This document shows, piece after piece, positions 1,407 to 8,924 of a stretch of 39,093 bases of DNA. A program made the translations under genes and the position numbers. The DNA comes from Pseudomonadota bacterium (lineage in GTDB: Bacteria; Pseudomonadota; Alphaproteobacteria; UBA828). A model generated the notes under the pieces. It was given only the letters and a program-made list of their open reading frames with translations, was not told where the DNA came from and did not search any database. The DNA is taken from the NCBI GenBank assembly GCA_027624955.1, contig JAQBTG010000038.1, positions 1 through 39,093 on the forward strand, written 5' to 3'. Within the stretch, counting starts at the first letter, position 1; each line of letters begins with the position of its first letter.

Positions 1407-4220
1407 TTAATCGCCGGCTGCCGCTCTTTTGGTTATATCTGTGGCGCCATATCCCCAGGGTGACTCTTCCAGCCAGGTCGTAAACTCTGCAATTGGCATC
1501 GGTCGGGCAAAATAATAGCCCTGGCCGAGTTCGCATCCGAGTTCTTTCAGCCGCTTTGCGTGCGCGGCTTCCTCGACCCCCTCAGCGACGACCTTGAGCC
1601 CCAGATTGTGTGCGAGGTCGATCGTCGAACGCACGATAACCTCGTCGCTCTTATCCTCGGTCATGTTCATAACAAACGTCTTGTCAATTTTCAGTTCATC
1701 CACTGGCAGCCGCTTGAGATAACTGAGCGACGAATAACCCGTCCCGAAATCGTCAATCGACAACCTCATCCCGAGTTCATCGAGACGCTGGATGGTGCTC
1801 ATTGCCTGCTCGGGGTCGATCATGATCGCGCTCTCGGTGATTTCTAGAGTTAGAAACTCACGGTCGATTTTCCATTCATTCACGAGGCCTTCTATGACTT
1901 CCGGCAAGTCCCTTTCATGCAAATTGCGGGCCGATATGTTGACCGACATGGCCATGCCCAGACCGAGCCGCTGCCATTCGGACAGAGACCGGAGCGCGGT
2001 GTTGAACATCCACACCGTCAAAGAACGAATCAATCCGGTTTGTTCCGCCAGCTCGATGAACTCATCGGGCGAAATAAAGCCGTGCTCGGGGTGAACCCAA
2101 CGCGAGAGCACTTCGCCCCCGGCGGCTCGTCCCGTGGCCAGATCGATCTTTGGCTGAAACACAATCGCCAGCTCGTTGCCTTCTATCGCTTGGCGTAGAT
2201 CGCCTGTGACCGTTAGTTGTCGAACGCTGCTGCGATCCTTATCGGCGTCATACTCAGCAAGGCCGGTCCCGGCTTTCTTTGCCATATACATGGCGACGTC
2301 GGCGGCTTGAATGAGGCGCGCTGGCGTTTCCGCGTGTTCGGGATACATTGCAATCCCGACGCTAACGCCGACCTCAAGCTCAATCTTATCCAGCAGAAAC
2401 GGTGATTTCAGCGATTCGATGATCCGCCGCGCCACGGCTTGGGCCTGATACTGGTCGGACACGGCGGGAAGAAGAATGGCGAATTCGTCACCGCCAAAGC
2501 GCGCAATTGTGTCTGTATCGCGGAGCGGCACAGTTAGCCGCTCGGCCACCATCTTCAACAACAGGTCACCAATATGATGGCCCAACGTATCGTTGACTTC
2601 CTTGAAGCAATCAAGATCAAGCGGGAGTATGGCCAGCGGTTTATTCTCGCGTTTGGCTAAGTGCAGATCATGTTCAAGGCGATCATTTAGCAGTGCCCGA
2701 TTGGGCAGACCCGTTAGGGCGTCATGTACAGCCTGGTACTCAAGTTTATCCTGATAGATCTTTCGCTCGGTGACGTCGCGCACAATTCCGACAAACATCT
2801 GTTCGTCGTCGAAATTCATTTCAGTCACCGTCAACTCCAACGAAAAGCTAGAGCCATCCTTGCGCTGACCTCCCAGTTCGCGTGGCCCTGCGTCGACGAG
2901 CAATATTGATTCGAGCGGGGCATCATTGTCCTGAGTAATCTCCGGAATCAAAAGCGACAGTTCCTGATCAATCAGTTCATCTTCACCGTATCCGAAAATC
3001 CGAGCGACGGCGGCATTGGCAGTTCGAATCGAACCTTTCTGCTTGATAATCACGATGCCATCGAAGGTATTATCGACCACACTTTTCATCATGGCGTTGG
3101 TGCGCCGCAGCTCAGAACCTTGAAGCAACAGACGGAATGCTTGTTGATCAACACGGCGTACAACGGAATAAGCAAAGAGAAGAATGAGAACAAGGATCAC
3201 TGGAGAAGAGTCTAACAGCACAGGCCATACGGCCTGCACACCGGTCGACATCAACAGCATGAAGATCGACCCCGCCAATGTAAGGGCCAACGCCCGCCGC
3301 CAGGACAAAGCCGAGTATATCCCGCCGAATAGTGCCGCGACGAAAAATACCAACGCCAGAACGGGTGCCGTACCAATTCCCTGCAACGCACGATCCTGCG
3401 CGAGAGATTCGAACGCCAAACCCTGAACGAACACGCCCGGTACTGATTTCGCGATGGGCACCGGCATCTGGTCGCCGAGCTCGATCGCGGTCGCGCCAAT
3501 CAAGAACTGCTTCCCGGCAATTTCCTCCGGGTCGAAGCGCCCCCTCAACACATCGACATAGGAAATTCGGGGAATCGAATGCCGATCGATACCGTAGTCG
3601 ATGTTAAACATCTCGAACGGCGCCTCTTCGCGCCCGGCCAGACGCACGGACATGGTGGGCACCGTCCGGTTTGCCCAGGGTTGGCGAACCGTCATGCGAC
3701 GAATCATTCCGTCCTCGGCGGGGCGCGTGTTGATCGATGCCACCTGAACATGGCGCGCGAACGCCCGGAGCGGCCCAGACAGGACTAAATTCGACCCGTC
3801 GGCGCTGGATTGGATTTGCGCGAACACCGGGAGCACAACTTTTTCCTTGGCGGCGGCCAAGGCCTGTGCGAAGCGGCGGTCGGCTTCCGGTGTTGACGGC
3901 GCGCCAAATTCGACATCAAAGGCAACGCGGCGCGCGCCGGCTTTTAGGAGAATTTCGACGATTTCAGCATGAAAATTTCGCGGCCACGGCCATGTACGCA
4001 ACTCGCTGATACTTCGCGGATCGATCATCACAATAACGAGGTCGCCGGTTGCCGGGCGGGTAACGACGCGAAATCGCGTATCGACTAATTCTCTCTCGAT
4101 GGAATCAAAGGTGCCAAACAAATAAAGTACAGCAACCAGCAGGAATATCAGCAGCGGCGGAAAGCGGCACTTCACGCCGGGAGGCAGCAATGCCAAAAAG
4201 TTTGTTAGGCGGCGTTTCAT
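1407..4220 (-). CDS. CHASE2-PAS-GGDEF-EAL bifunctional c-di-GMP enzyme
   Basis: This 937-residue inner-membrane signalling protein should both make and degrade cyclic di-GMP. Residues 20-36 form a transmembrane helix, about 40-275 an extracytoplasmic CHASE2 sensor, and about 284-353 three further helices. A PAS domain follows (about 373-488), then GGDEF and EAL. The cyclase signature GGDEF is intact at 576-580, with an RxxD inhibitory site (R567-D570) five residues before it. The EAL domain has EVL at 703-705, N761, LEITES (792-797), DDFGTG at 823-828, K847 and EGVE at 880-883, so phosphodiesterase activity is plausible. It is the last gene of the FecR/TpsB locus. CHASE2 proteins are often encoded beside FecR-domain proteins, so its periplasmic sensor may read the state of that envelope system. 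No strong ribosome-binding site precedes the ATG. Confidence 0.93.
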   Translation of the reverse strand: MKRRLTNFLALLPPGVKCRFPPLLIFLLVAVLYLFGTFDSIERELVDTRFRVVTRPATGDLVIVMIDPRSISELRTWPWPRNFHAEIVEILLKAGARRVAFDVEFGAPSTPEADRRFAQALAAAKEKVVLPVFAQIQSSADGSNLVLSGPLRAFARHVQVASINTRPAEDGMIRRMTVRQPWANRTVPTMSVRLAGREEAPFEMFNIDYGIDRHSIPRISYVDVLRGRFDPEEIAGKQFLIGATAIELGDQMPVPIAKSVPGVFVQGLAFESLAQDRALQGIGTAPVLALVFFVAALFGGIYSALSWRRALALTLAGSIFMLLMSTGVQAVWPVLLDSSPVILVLILLFAYSVVRRVDQQAFRLLLQGSELRRTNAMMKSVVDNTFDGIVIIKQKGSIRTANAAVARIFGYGEDELIDQELSLLIPEITQDNDAPLESILLVDAGPRELGGQRKDGSSFSLELTVTEMNFDDEQMFVGIVRDVTERKIYQDKLEYQAVHDALTGLPNRALLNDRLEHDLHLAKRENKPLAILPLDLDCFKEVNDTLGHHIGDLLLKMVAERLTVPLRDTDTIARFGGDEFAILLPAVSDQYQAQAVARRIIESLKSPFLLDKIELEVGVSVGIAMYPEHAETPARLIQAADVAMYMAKKAGTGLAEYDADKDRSSVRQLTVTGDLRQAIEGNELAIVFQPKIDLATGRAAGGEVLSRWVHPEHGFISPDEFIELAEQTGLIRSLTVWMFNTALRSLSEWQRLGLGMAMSVNISARNLHERDLPEVIEGLVNEWKIDREFLTLEITESAIMIDPEQAMSTIQRLDELGMRLSIDDFGTGYSSLSYLKRLPVDELKIDKTFVMNMTEDKSDEVIVRSTIDLAHNLGLKVVAEGVEEAAHAKRLKELGCELGQGYYFARPMPIAEFTTWLEESPWGYGATDITKRAAAGD

Positions 4221-4360
4221 GAATTGCCAAACTCACTTCCCGGTGAGTGCTGGCCGCTTGTCAAAGAGCACTACCCGTCCACTGAGCGGCGCGAAAATTT
4301 GCCTCGACGGCCAAGCGCCAAAGACCCGTACGTTGCAACAGATTATCAACGAATAGGCCA

Positions 4361-4810
4361 TCAGCGAACGGTAGCATTGGCTAGGTCGATGAAAATACTT
4401 TCCAGCGGTTCGCTAAAGCCAACGTCTAACGACGGTTCAGATTCTTCTAACTCAGACTCTATATTTTCCATGTCCGTTCCGGCAGCCGGCTGAACATCAA
4501 AACCGAAATCGAGGATAGCGATCTGATTTGCATCAAACCCGCCCGTTTCATTTTTGAAAAGGATATCCGCGGCCTCCTCATTTGTCAGAAACCACACCCC
4601 GTCGGGCAAATAGTCGGAACCGTTGGCGCGGACTAGAACAAAAGCGCCGCCTTTCAGCCCCTCAATATCGACAGCGGAATTATCCTGAACATCGTGACCC
4701 TGGATCGCCGCAAATTCGGGCTGACCGGCGAGCGCGGCCGTCGTCAAAATTACGGTGATTGCGGCGGCCAAAAACCCGGCCCATTTGGTCACGCAATTCG
4801 GCATTGTCAT
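4361..4810 (-). CDS. Small acidic secreted protein of unknown function
   Basis: I do not recognise this 149-residue protein. It begins with a basic-hydrophobic signal peptide (about residues 1-29, cleavage likely after ALA). The mature part is acidic, with a Glu/Asp-rich stretch around MENIESELEESEP. It contains a DGVWFLTNEEAADILF segment. The chosen ATG at 4810 has AGGAAGAG just upstream; an ATG at 4804 and an upstream in-frame ATG at 4858 are alternatives. It lies between the TpsB gene and the CHASE2 gene, 140 bases from the latter, and is preceded by an AT-rich gap. A periplasmic or exported partner of the locus is the natural guess, but nothing in the sequence proves it. Confidence 0.6.
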   Translation of the reverse strand: MTMPNCVTKWAGFLAAAITVILTTAALAGQPEFAAIQGHDVQDNSAVDIEGLKGGAFVLVRANGSDYLPDGVWFLTNEEAADILFKNETGGFDANQIAILDFGFDVQPAAGTDMENIESELEESEPSLDVGFSEPLESIFIDLANATVR

Positions 4811-5224
4811 TCGATCTCTTCCTGGCGAAATTTCAATTGTCGAATTTCCGTTTAGCATTGTCTTACAGTCGGCGATCCGGCACCCTTTCGCCTTCGAGAA
4901 TTTAAAAATCTTATTCTGGAAGGTATAATTTGTTCCTAATCCTGCAACATAATTTCCATTTTAATCCTACAAATAATAGTATACTAGACCTATTATAACG
5001 AATTAATTACAACAGTATTTCAAATATTATTCGAGTGTCTTTACCGATGACATATTTATTTGTTTCATACTAACAAATCGTCCTATTACTTTAGCGTAGG
5101 AATTTCTCCTCTCCCCATCATGCTTACGTCTTCTCTATTTCGTAAGTATGTCTCAAACACTTAACGATATTTCTCGCGAATTTATCATAACTTTCAATGA
5201 CCAGAATCACTGGTTTCGTATGAC
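4811..5224. other. AT-rich intergenic segment
   Basis: About 410 bases carry no convincing gene and are visibly AT-rich (runs such as TATTATAACGAATTAATTAC), unlike the GC-rich surroundings. The segment separates the TpsB gene from the small secreted protein gene. It may carry a promoter for the latter; several TATAAT-like hexamers occur, but none can be singled out. No strong hairpin followed by a T-run was found after the TpsB stop. Confidence 0.5.
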
Positions 5225-7258
5225 TCAATATTGCATCGAAATCGTTAGAAATAGACGTGGATTTTTGCCATTTTCCTCGAGTTGGGCGACAGTTCGCGTC
5301 AGCGGCTTTGCTATTTCCAAACGGACAAAAACATCGGAAGGCAAGTTCAGCGTGAGGCCGATACCGGCCGACGCCAAGGACTCGCTCGTGTTTCCCTCGT
5401 CTATATCTGAATCCCACACCACCCCAAAATCGTAAAACCCATAGAGGCTGAACGCCTGGAGATACTCGGCATCCACCTCATACTGGTAGGCAAGTTGCAG
5501 GGAAGATGCCACGCCGTTCATGCCCGAAATCTCGGCGGCGTCGTAAGCCCGTCCGAATTGACTGCCTCCAATTGAAAATTTCTCTGCCGAGAGCAAGCGA
5601 TCCTCAGACCACTGGCCGTGGGTTGATGCGCGAAGCGAAAGCGCGTCGGATAAACTCTGTTGTCGTTCCGCCGTTGCTTCGATCTTGGTAAACGAACTTT
5701 TGCCACCGAACTGAGATAGAGTTGCCGACCCTGCTGTAGTTGCCCCTAGAATATTAAGTCCCTGGCTGAGTTTCACGCCTACCGAGTTTTTGCCTTCAAA
5801 ATCATCGGAAATATTGTAGCGCCCACCAATTCTCAACACCCGCAACCGATCTTCCGTCAGCGTTTCCGCCTGTTTCGTCGTGTTGGAATTCGAATAGTCG
5901 AATCGAAGTGAGAGCGAAGCGCTTTGATCGCTGCGTCGATATAGCGGATGGTCGATCTTCAGGGAAAGACCCGATTTGAAACTATTGACGGCGAGGTCGC
6001 TTAGGTCTGCTCCGGCATCCACGTTGGTGCGGGCCGCGCTGAAAGTGATCGTCGTGCCCGCTTCGCCAATAGGCTGCCGGTGACCGACTTCGTAGTAGAG
6101 AAGCTCCTCGGGCTGCAACGGCGCCGTGATGAAACTTAAGCTCGTCTGCTCGTATTGACCAAGAATTGAATTTAAGGCGACACCGAAAAGACTACGATAC
6201 GGGCCGATTGATCTCGTGCCTCGATTGTCGACCGTGACGGAGCCGTCGTATGTTTGGTGCGCGAGTTCAAGAACCAATTGGAACGCATCCGGTTTCCCCT
6301 CAACGGGGGTAAGCGTTGGCGTCGCCTCTACACCCGGCAAACTATTAACCAGCACCAAATTATTGACGAACACCCATTTCCGCAGCGGACGGTCCGCAGC
6401 GATATTGTCTCCATAAGCACGCAAGAGGCTGTCTCGACCGCGCATAGCGCCCGCAAATTCGACACTTTCGATGAAACCCTCAAAGATTTGGTAACGCACG
6501 ATTCCAAGGGTGATGCGCTGTCTCGGCATGAAGGCCCGCGATAGGAAGTAACCGTCAGCCTTGTATTTCTTGGTTATCGATTCGGCGACATTCCTGAGTT
6601 CCACGCCCGAGACTGTTTTCCCGAGATATTTCTCATAAAGCGGGGCAAATTCCTCTAATTGATAGGCTGTAGCGCCTTCTATCACCACAGCGCTGAGAAC
6701 GATTCCATTCTCATTTTTCTTATTTTCTGTGTCAGTTTTATCTTTCTCCTCGGCGGCGGCTCGTTCCTCTGTTTCAACTTTCTCGAGGTCTTCCTCCGCT
6801 TTTTCCGCCGCTTCTTCGCCCTCCTCGGCGGATTTCTCTTTCGCCTGGATAGCCCGCTTCTCTGTCTCCTTCCTGATTTCGTCAACGGCCGACTCTGCTT
6901 CTTTGGCAGGTCGCTTTTTCTTTTCATCTTTGCCAAGGCCAGCGAGCTTACCCTTGGTTTCATTTTCGACAAAATGACTGGGTGCCGCCGGAAGCGGCGT
7001 GTTCAGAGAGGCTACGCGTTGATCCTGTGTTAGCTCTTTGCGCTTCGCCGGGCGGCCTTCAACTGACCACCCCGCGACGCGTCCCAAGGCGAGTACTTCA
7101 TCATCTGATGCCAGAAATAGGAGGTTGAATTCCACCCCGTTCGAAACTTTTGGTGCGGTCGTTACGATATCTGTGGCGGCCCAACTGCCGACCGCGACAA
7201 ACATCGCTCCCATGAAACCAATACTCTGCCAAATATTGCGCGGCACAATCTGCGGCAT
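5225..7258 (-). CDS. TpsB-family outer-membrane transporter (ShlB/FhaC/HecB type)
   Basis: This 677-residue protein is a two-partner-secretion transporter: a 16-strand outer-membrane barrel fed by periplasmic POTRA domains. A signal peptide covers about residues 1-28. A POTRA_2-type region spans about 187-262 (VVIEGATAY, then KYKADGYFLSRAF). The barrel follows to a C-terminal aromatic residue (SMQY). The conserved loop-6 motif appears as FGRAYD at 568-573. The protein is about 100 residues longer than usual because residues 102-184 are a Lys/Glu-rich, probably coiled-coil segment between signal peptide and POTRA. Its cognate TpsA is absent from the window. It is 48 bases downstream of the FecR-domain gene, so the two are probably co-transcribed. 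Confidence 0.9.
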   Translation of the reverse strand: MPQIVPRNIWQSIGFMGAMFVAVGSWAATDIVTTAPKVSNGVEFNLLFLASDDEVLALGRVAGWSVEGRPAKRKELTQDQRVASLNTPLPAAPSHFVENETKGKLAGLGKDEKKKRPAKEAESAVDEIRKETEKRAIQAKEKSAEEGEEAAEKAEEDLEKVETEERAAAEEKDKTDTENKKNENGIVLSAVVIEGATAYQLEEFAPLYEKYLGKTVSGVELRNVAESITKKYKADGYFLSRAFMPRQRITLGIVRYQIFEGFIESVEFAGAMRGRDSLLRAYGDNIAADRPLRKWVFVNNLVLVNSLPGVEATPTLTPVEGKPDAFQLVLELAHQTYDGSVTVDNRGTRSIGPYRSLFGVALNSILGQYEQTSLSFITAPLQPEELLYYEVGHRQPIGEAGTTITFSAARTNVDAGADLSDLAVNSFKSGLSLKIDHPLYRRSDQSASLSLRFDYSNSNTTKQAETLTEDRLRVLRIGGRYNISDDFEGKNSVGVKLSQGLNILGATTAGSATLSQFGGKSSFTKIEATAERQQSLSDALSLRASTHGQWSEDRLLSAEKFSIGGSQFGRAYDAAEISGMNGVASSLQLAYQYEVDAEYLQAFSLYGFYDFGVVWDSDIDEGNTSESLASAGIGLTLNLPSDVFVRLEIAKPLTRTVAQLEENGKNPRLFLTISMQY

Positions 7259-7306
7259 TCAAATTCGGCCCTCAGCAGGAGGTGCTAAGATTTCGAGATC
7301 GCTACG

Positions 7307-8380
7307 CTAGTTATTGCCGTTGTTACCGCTATTGCCGTTGTTGCCGTTGTTATTGCCGCTGTTGCCGCTATTGCCGCTGTTGCCGCTATTGCCGCTATTG
7401 CCGCTGTTGCCGCTGTTGCCGCTATTGCCGCTATTGCCGTTGTTGGCGGCGGCGGCCTGACTTGCTGCCTTCGAGGCTTCCTTGACCGCTTCGCTTGCCG
7501 CCTTGGCGGCTTGTTTAGCCGCGTTGTTCGCCGCCTTCGAGGCTTCTTTAGCCGCGTTGCTTGCCGCTTTCGAGGTTTCCTTGGATGCGCTGCTTGCCGC
7601 TTTCGAGGCTTCCCTGGATGCCTCGCTTGCCGCCTTCGACGCTTCCCTGGATGCGTCTGCGCCTGCGGGATTTAATGTTGCCACTGGCGCTGCGGCGCCG
7701 TCCGGTGCCTGACTGTCTTGAGGATCGTCCGGCGCAGCCGGTGTGATCTGTGCAGGCGCGTCAACTGAGTCCCCGCGGCCAAGAACGCTCAATTTGGAGC
7801 CGGCCTTCGACGGCATTACCGCGGTTTCACCTGGAACCAGCAACTCGCTGGCGCCAATGCCCACCGCAATGGCTTCAACCGATCCTTCTATGAGGGATAT
7901 AGCTGCACCTTCAACACCTACAGTCACGGTAAACACCGTTCCCTTCACGCCGGCAACGAGATAGGGGGTTTCGACGTTAAATTGGCGGCCAGCGATTTTA
8001 TCGATTTTGTAAAGTGCCGTACCGAGCGTCTGTTGGATATTCGCGCCGCTCTCACCCGGAGCAATGATCGGCACCGCCAGGCGGCTATTCGGTGAAAGCG
8101 TGATGTCATCACCGCCCACCCGCAAAACGATCCGCCCGTCCTCGCCGGTTTCAATTTCGGTTCCCGGGCTTATGACGGCGCCAGCAATCAACGGCTCCCA
8201 GTTAATAAAATCTGTCGTCATTTCCGCGTCGCCGCTGACCTCTTGGACTGTCCACTCGACACTATTTGCGCTGGCTGCCCGCGAATGTACGGCCGGGGTC
8301 ACAAGTATCACTGATAACATTGCAATTCTTAGCGCCCGCGCCGCCATATCAAGTAGGCTGGAATTAAACGTTGTTAGCAT
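7307..8380 (-). CDS. FecR-domain secreted protein with hendecad and Gly-Asn-Ser repeats
   Basis: This 357-residue protein has a signal peptide (about 1-36, ending SRAASA) and a FecR-type domain (about 42-170). The domain contains VSGDAEM, GTEIETGEDGRIVLR and the family's VAGVKGTVFTV segment. A Pro/Ala/Asp linker (about 207-242) leads to six 11-residue Ala/Ser/Lys repeats (243-308) and a 45-residue Asn/Gly/Ser tail (313-357). Unlike true FecR there is no cytoplasmic anti-sigma segment, so it is more likely a periplasmic or surface ligand-binding protein than a sigma regulator. ATG 8380 was chosen because GGGGA lies eight bases upstream and the signal peptide begins there; an upstream ATG at 8464 adds 28 residues unlike a leader. 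It heads the TpsB/CHASE2 locus. Confidence 0.85.
   Translation of the reverse strand: MLTTFNSSLLDMAARALRIAMLSVILVTPAVHSRAASANSVEWTVQEVSGDAEMTTDFINWEPLIAGAVISPGTEIETGEDGRIVLRVGGDDITLSPNSRLAVPIIAPGESGANIQQTLGTALYKIDKIAGRQFNVETPYLVAGVKGTVFTVTVGVEGAAISLIEGSVEAIAVGIGASELLVPGETAVMPSKAGSKLSVLGRGDSVDAPAQITPAAPDDPQDSQAPDGAAAPVATLNPAGADASREASKAASEASREASKAASSASKETSKAASNAAKEASKAANNAAKQAAKAASEAVKEASKAASQAAAANNGNSGNSGNSGNSGNSGNSGNSGNSGNSGNNNGNNGNSGNNGNN
7310..7444 (-). repeat. 9-base tandem repeats encoding an Asn-Ser-Gly tail
   Basis: On the plus strand this is a chain of GCCGCTATT/GCCGCTGTT-type 9-mers. On the coding strand it gives nine GNS units followed by GNN/GNS variants at the C-terminus of the FecR-domain protein. 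Asn codons alternate between AAC and AAT, so the array is slightly diverged, not freshly expanded. There are no spacers, so it is not a CRISPR. Confidence 0.9.
7457..7654 (-). repeat. Six 33-base tandem repeats encoding 11-residue units
   Basis: Six consecutive 11-residue units follow the pattern AsrEASKAASe (for example ASREASKAASE, ASREASKAASS, AAKEASKAANN). They fill exactly 198 bases inside the FecR-domain gene. The 11-residue (hendecad) spacing of Ala with Lys/Glu is that of an extended helix or right-handed coiled coil. Codon differences between units show the array is old or under selection at the protein level. Confidence 0.88.
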
Positions 8381-8924
8381 CACAGGTCCCCGCTTCCGTA
8401 AAGTGGTTGATAATTTGCAAGTAGCAACTCGCACTTGTTTTCCGTCATTTCTTGAAAAGAACATGATTAGGTTAATGAATACTTAGGGGAGACGAACAAA
8501 CGGAAGTTCCGGGTATTTTTGCCGCCCTCTAGCCGATAAATGGCGGCGAAAAGCCCAAATTTCACCGTGAGGGCGACGCACCGCGCTCTCGTGTCACACC
8601 AGGTTCAGAGGTGTTTGGCGCGAGGCATCGAATGCCCCCGATGAGTCACGAAGAGGCGAAAACGCCAGCCTGAAAAAAAATCCGTTTAGCTGCTGACAAC
8701 GGACATGAAATTCAGCAAATAATATTTGCGACCTTGATGTGCGCTTACTGTCCGGCTGGGAATGGAGTTCGATCGGCGGTTTGACTTCGCGGTTTAGTCA
8801 AGCTCAGCCAGTGGCTTCATCCGTCGAGAAGTGCCCCCGCTTCATTCAGGCCTGGCCTGGCGAAGCCCTCGGTGAATCACCCGTCGATCGGAGAGACGAG
8901 CGGATTGTCGCCGCAAGAACCACT
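8381..8924. other. Intergenic region upstream of the FecR/TpsB locus
   Basis: These 544 bases lie between the GST stop and the FecR-domain start, so the promoter of the FecR/TpsB locus should be here. I see no credible gene. An inverted repeat, TTGACT (8781-8786) with AGTCAA (8796-8801), could be an operator or a weak hairpin. No sigma-70 hexamer pair stands out. Confidence 0.4.

Follow-up and report, generated by a model that had tools for sequence, protein, structure and literature searches.

The window, a stretch of 39,093 nucleotides corresponding to contig JAQBTG010000038.1 (contig C38 of genome G000, an alphaproteobacterial assembly of 3.58 Mb in 84 contigs that is 98% complete), carries four neighboring genes encoding, in order, a FecR-domain protein, a TpsB outer-membrane transporter, a small acidic protein, and an enzyme with a CHASE2 sensor domain. 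All four lie together on one strand, as the original prediction had stated, namely the minus strand, with intergenic spacings of 48 bp between FecR and TpsB, 366 bp between TpsB and the small protein, and 140 bp between the small protein and the CHASE2 enzyme. The features of the locus, all on the minus strand, are as follows.

7307-8464, minus strand: FecR-domain exported protein, 385 residues (Pfam FecR, 2.7e-9; AlphaFold pLDDT mostly >90 over residues 41-200)
7772-8260, minus strand: predicted FecR fold (AlphaFold residues 71-203 match PupR 6ovk and 4m0n)
7439-7669, minus strand: Ala/Ser/Lys repeats of the FecR protein, predicted by AlphaFold to form a single long helix, residues 238-314
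7310-7438, minus strand: Gly-Asn-Ser/Asn repeat tail of the FecR protein, predicted to be disordered from sequence and low pLDDT; related FecR proteins have similar tails
5225-7258, minus strand: TpsB outer-membrane transporter, 677 residues (Pfam ShlB, 6.3e-28; POTRA_2, 4.8e-14; model closest to CdiB 6wim and FhaC)
6704-7180, minus strand: charged helical extension of TpsB, N-terminal to the POTRA domains and unusual (from sequence; modeled helices 119-138 and 145-174, modest confidence)
6254-6697, minus strand: POTRA region of TpsB (Pfam POTRA_2 at residues 188-261; model)
4859-5224, minus strand: AT-rich gap between TpsB and the small gene, 366 bp, 33.9% G+C
4361-4858, minus strand: orphan small acidic protein, 165 residues, no family; in the locus but outside the conserved set
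1407-4220, minus strand: CHASE2-PAS-GGDEF-EAL enzyme, 937 residues (Pfam CHASE2, 3.8e-38; PAS, GGDEF, and EAL also matched)
3321-4145, minus strand: CHASE2 domain of the enzyme (Pfam)
2772-3092, minus strand: PAS domain (Pfam)
2265-2732, minus strand: GGDEF domain (Pfam)
1500-2201, minus strand: EAL domain (Pfam)

The FecR protein begins with a hydrophobic stretch that resembles a signal peptide; an alternative start at an internal ATG at 8380 gives the 357-residue version used in the original prediction. By sequence, no solved-structure relatives of this FecR family were found, the one match being a chance match (E = 0.56). By structure, the model matches the PupR signaling domain (6ovk and 4m0n) with a Z score of 16.7 and an rmsd of 2.4 over 127 residues, the next unrelated entry having a Z score of 6.7. 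The model thus indicates a genuine FecR fold, with PupR as its nearest match. A TPS β-helix domain is not among the matches listed in this comparison, which is not evidence of its absence. The FecR fold in the periplasmic part is shared with FecA-FecR-FecI signaling; however, the window protein has no anti-sigma region (none was found by Pfam), and the recurrent neighbors of its family are TpsB and CHASE2 only, not a sigma factor or a TonB receptor. A second FecR protein of the same subfamily is encoded in the window's genome (L071 9589-10560, G000:C49), where the contig end cuts within GGS repeats; the available stretch there carries no TpsB or CHASE2.

The TpsB model shows 16 long strands (counted by eye) along with two POTRA domains, and its nearest structural matches are CdiB and FhaC, which indicates that the protein is a true TpsB. 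In this respect the locus resembles two-partner secretion (FhaB/FhaC, CdiA/CdiB), which also uses a genuine TpsB with POTRA domains and a 16-strand barrel, but it differs in having no TpsA bearing an N-terminal TPS domain. The N-terminal extension of the window TpsB spans ~160 residues, and most relatives are 550-600 residues in total. Related proteins are also seen elsewhere in the genus: a TpsB gene close to the end of its contig is interrupted by a TAG stop, with no FecR on the available stretch (L033 11970-13769, G002:C225), and a 624-residue TPR protein in the window's genome has a TpsB-type POTRA domain and no barrel (L032 7257-9131, G000:C25), among neighbors that look by eye like trpA, accD, and folC. 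Other genomes of the genus encode POTRA proteins of a similar kind (L034, L035, and L049). In the AT-rich gap behind TpsB no RNA element was detected; a single match, outside the gap, stayed below threshold (E = 0.012; 21.8 bits, cut-off 100). Promoter and terminator scans were near chance (9 found versus 5.1 and 13 versus 10.1, respectively).

The small acidic protein has a pI of 4.05, a signal peptide as judged by eye, and no Pfam family. Among 385 genomes of the class it was found only in its own (1/385), with no convincing match in 24 nearer genomes; its best other match (E = 0.009) lies on contig 49 of the window's genome. Because it is seen in the window's genome only, we place it outside the conserved set and reject it as a conserved cargo or partner, a role that had been proposed for it.

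The remaining three genes form a conserved unit across alphaproteobacteria. Loci were collected by FecR-domain similarity alone, a TpsB alignment being too poorly conserved to scan the collection with; flanking sequence extended to as much as 10 kb in either direction, and neighbors were called with custom profiles for TpsB and CHASE2. The FecR alignment for modeling drew on the window and 64 of the 81 relatives listed, and the TpsB alignment on the window and 37 of 61. The seeds of the FecR search model are themselves TpsB-linked, which biases the search toward that branch, and the distant relatives were not picked for linkage. Of the 385 class genomes, 119 match this search model at an E-value of 1e-3, and the top matches form a group of their own. 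In the named genome collection 167 stretches were confirmed, and the best 80 of them yielded 79 distinct loci. Qipengyuania citrea contributes two contigs of the same strain to this set, and Sphingomonas sp. BK580 likewise contributes two.

Among these 79 loci (best 80 of 167 stretches), TpsB lies beside FecR in 61 and CHASE2 lies near it in 63; both are present in 50, CHASE2 only in 13, TpsB only in 11, and neither in 5. When the same loci are restricted to those whose flanks reach 4 kb or more in both directions (n = 56), TpsB is found in 42 and CHASE2 in 51. All 61 TpsB genes are divergent and upstream of FecR. Clustering of the neighbors of the loci from these best 80 stretches gave only three widely recurrent families, CHASE2 (61 loci), FecR (59), and TpsB (55); a fourth family recurs in 17 loci, and its representative lies on the strand opposite FecR and overlaps it. 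The genomes that were checked (n = 23) hold only one or two TpsBs each, and with TpsB beside FecR in 61 of 79 loci, chance adjacency is not credible. The trio adjoins in the public annotation of Bosea sp. Tri-49 as well, and one locus (L085 4752-13912) has two tandem TpsB-FecR pairs together with one CHASE2-GGDEF-EAL enzyme. The two FecR tails at L085 differ in composition, one being Asp-rich and the other Gly-Asn-rich.

Trees were built without L052, L056, L096, and L124, which repeat a contig or organism, and without short fragments. On the FecR tree, TpsB presence changes 4 times, compared with at least 14 times in 500 shuffles, a clustering of the kind that a stably inherited association should give. 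As regards linkage, the original prediction of a four-gene set is therefore supported for FecR, TpsB, and CHASE2, which are conserved together in the FecR-anchored loci from the best 80 of 167 stretches, and is not supported for the small protein.

A TpsA was sought with a TPS model built from three TpsAs and run on 23 genomes; this model matched in 5/5 control genomes, three of which supplied it. The Pfam TPS model matched in no control genome, and its negative results were discounted for that reason. No TpsA lies beside the window TpsB, and no TpsA or TPS-domain protein was found in any of the 79 FecR-anchored loci (best 80 of 167 stretches), in agreement with the original observation that no large TpsA accompanies the transporter. 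With the three-TpsA model none was found elsewhere in the window's 98%-complete genome either. Neither of the conditions that the original prediction named as refuting it, a TpsA served by this transporter or a lack of conserved linkage, was thus borne out. Among 16 genomes with a FecR-linked TpsB, 10 have one TpsB and no TpsA (G000, G246, G127, G391, G113, G158, G314, G225, G318, and G377). Five have a TpsA within ~300 bp of a second TpsB (G030, G033, G163, G141, and G244), and one (G165) has a second TpsB with no TpsA found. On this accounting, the FecR-linked TpsBs have no known TpsA.

In the TpsB tree, the FecR-linked TpsBs are separate from the TpsA-linked ones. No residue signature divides the two groups at the thresholds used, and the tip-loop arginine, which in FhaC (R450) is tied to secretion, is kept in 69 of 70 FecR-linked TpsBs. 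The window TpsB sits on the branch between 70 FecR-linked TpsBs and 12 others, 9 of which are TpsA-linked (support 0.945 and 0.954), and the window FecR is placed among TpsB-linked FecRs with weak support. This position next to the TpsA-linked group, together with the 34% G+C gap behind TpsB and a gene order that is unique (81 FecR-TpsB pairs are divergent, including some duplicate contigs, versus one co-directional pair, that of the window), would fit a separate acquisition of TpsB that landed by chance within a FecR-CHASE2 locus. We regard such an origin as quite improbable, as the best BLAST match of the window TpsB is the FecR-linked TpsB of L085, the locus that also supplies the best match of the CHASE2 enzyme, and the window's genome has no TpsA that was found.

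FecR loci without a nearby TpsB make up 18 of the 79 loci (best 80 of 167 stretches), and 11 of their 18 genomes lack any ShlB match, which indicates that FecR-CHASE2 can work without TpsB. Two candidate marks of TpsB partnership were considered. Low-complexity FecR tails, similar in kind, also occur without TpsB, and the tail was not upheld as such a mark; only its length differs, with a median of 242 residues with TpsB (n = 54) versus 201.5 residues without (n = 18; p = 4e-4, not corrected for kinship). Cysteine-free FecR proteins are equally common with TpsB (76/80) and without it (24/25), and the two groups cannot be told apart by an avoidance of cysteine such as export might call for.

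These observations bear on the possibility that the FecR protein is fully exported by TpsB, to serve as a small protein of the surface or matrix, and that the CHASE2 enzyme regulates the biofilm state without sensing export. FecR is, besides CHASE2, the sole conserved gene next to TpsB in the loci from the best 80 of 167 stretches, it has an N-terminal all-β domain followed by a repetitive tail, and it is nearly always cysteine-free, all of which would suit a cargo. However, the protein has a FecR fold and no TPS domain, and the FecR-CHASE2 pair persists in genomes that lack TpsB. On balance we consider full export unlikely.

A domain scan of CHASE2 proteins covered 55 of 62 listed ones plus that of the window (56 in total); 45 carry EAL and 11 a histidine kinase, and GGDEF is present in 33. 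The EAL catalytic set is complete in all 45 EAL members, the window enzyme included, whereas the standard GGDEF motif is found in 16 proteins, which points to phosphodiesterase activity as the conserved c-di-GMP output. The GGDEF domain of the window enzyme is intact, with an RxxD site. Judging from these residues, the conserved output of the CHASE2 enzymes is predicted to be c-di-GMP hydrolysis (45/56) or histidine kinase activity (11/56). The earlier suggestion that CHASE2 sets the c-di-GMP level is accordingly narrowed: a c-di-GMP role stands as hydrolysis in most members, but setting of the c-di-GMP level does not hold as a general output.

Several described systems share parts of this arrangement. 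The feature that defines the FecR-CHASE2 pair, an exported FecR protein and a CHASE2 enzyme in one locus, is present in the window. In the accessible parts of the sources, the outer-membrane protein NsrA is required together with the CHASE2 cyclase CyaK for sensing of a ribosomal protein (PMC7529298; PMC13001267); CyaK signaling depends genetically on NsrA, and the NsrA barrel is assigned to residues 600-1200 (PMC7529298). On pSymB of S. meliloti AK21, a 1224-residue protein that contains FecR and TPR and weakly matches an outer-membrane barrel is encoded directly before a CHASE2 cyclase; from its size and position, this protein is probably NsrA. It differs from the S. meliloti FecR protein SMc02177, which is reported not to be needed for plant-signal perception in the accessible text of PMC5498481, a negative finding that should be weighed here. 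Among six large CHASE2-linked FecR proteins from other alphaproteobacteria, chosen for size and not at random, four are FecR-TPR-barrel fusions and two are FecR-RTX proteins. The four fusions (L158, L159, L160, and L166; 1106-1136 residues) have TonB-receptor-like barrels, stand beside CHASE2 genes, and are apparent relatives of NsrA. The two FecR proteins with RTX repeats lie near CHASE2 genes (L155 6684-12944, 2086 residues; L157 4579-7758, 1059 residues); one of them also has Calx-beta, which suggests that FecR is coupled to surface elements of other kinds too. With a fused barrel, RTX repeats, or a separate TpsB, FecR beside CHASE2 is repeatedly tied to an element that reaches the surface.

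In the NsrA-CyaK system, as in the window, a single locus brings together an outer-membrane barrel (a weak match in the former), a FecR domain, and a second-messenger enzyme with a CHASE2 domain. They differ in that FecR, TPR, and the apparent barrel are fused and the output is cAMP in NsrA-CyaK, whereas the window has a separate FecR protein and TpsB barrel and a predicted output of c-di-GMP hydrolysis. We read NsrA-CyaK as the closest working precedent and the window locus as what may be the same relay in split form, in which TpsB would supply the barrel. Other precedents are more distant. The Burkholderia BiofilmReg operon, which is linked to biofilm, encodes a response regulator, a LysM-FecR protein, and a CHASE2 histidine kinase; it likewise pairs an exported FecR protein with a CHASE2 sensor but has LysM in place of the repeat tail and a response regulator, and no mention of TpsB or hemagglutinin was found in the accessible text (PMC5192318). 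A Campylobacterota cluster, in which a CHASE2 adenylate cyclase accompanies FecR and TPR proteins, shares the FecR-CHASE2 pairing but has an adenylate cyclase output, and the accessible text mentions no TpsB (PMC9239204). Within the accessible text of open-licence papers, no FecR-TpsB-CHASE2 set was found, and TpsB is not named with the CHASE2 precedents.

The barrel fusions raise the question of whether TpsB acts as a receptor barrel only, as may be true of the NsrA barrel, such that an outside ligand shifts the POTRA domains, FecR relays the change to CHASE2, and nothing is exported. FecR domains in cell-surface signaling pair with outer-membrane receptors, as the PupR match recalls, and four of the six large proteins encoded beside CHASE2 join FecR to a receptor-like barrel, as does the S. 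meliloti protein, whose barrel match is weak. On the other side, the tip-loop arginine, tied to secretion in FhaC (R450), is kept in nearly all FecR-linked TpsBs (69/70), and the long FecR tails would be left needing explanation. In our estimate, a receptor without export is rather unlikely.

Our main reading is that the FecR protein, TpsB, and the CHASE2 enzyme constitute one trans-envelope signaling relay, to which we assign a probability of roughly 0.55. The linkage, the absence of TpsA, the folds, and the intact EAL residues are what the analyses above show; the contacts, the threading of the tail, and the direction of the signal are what we infer. In such a relay, TpsB would sit in the outer membrane, and the periplasmic FecR domain would bridge the outer-membrane pore and the CHASE2 sensor, which the enzyme in the inner membrane exposes to the periplasm. 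The FecR-CHASE2 contact would change with conditions at the outer-membrane end, in all likelihood with whether TpsB has threaded the FecR tail to the surface or with what is bound there, and the altered contact would set the output, c-di-GMP hydrolysis in most lineages and phosphorylation in others. A more specific form of this relay, which we put forward only tentatively, is that secretion reports on itself: TpsB would thread the TPS-less FecR tail to the surface while the FecR domain stays behind, informs CHASE2, and so sets c-di-GMP breakdown. If this proposal is true, the FecR proteins would define a new class of TpsB partner, and CHASE2 would gain a defined protein signal.

The ligand of CHASE2 has been described as unknown, including in the accessible text of PMC5192318, and the conserved FecR-TpsB set is a concrete protein candidate for what this widespread sensor detects. 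The set also accounts for a whole branch of TpsBs that have no TpsA. NsrA-CyaK, the Burkholderia biofilm operon, and the module described here share a common theme, an outer-membrane or surface element, a FecR link, and a CHASE2 enzyme, and the conserved set suggests a small machine that tells the cell interior about the cell surface.
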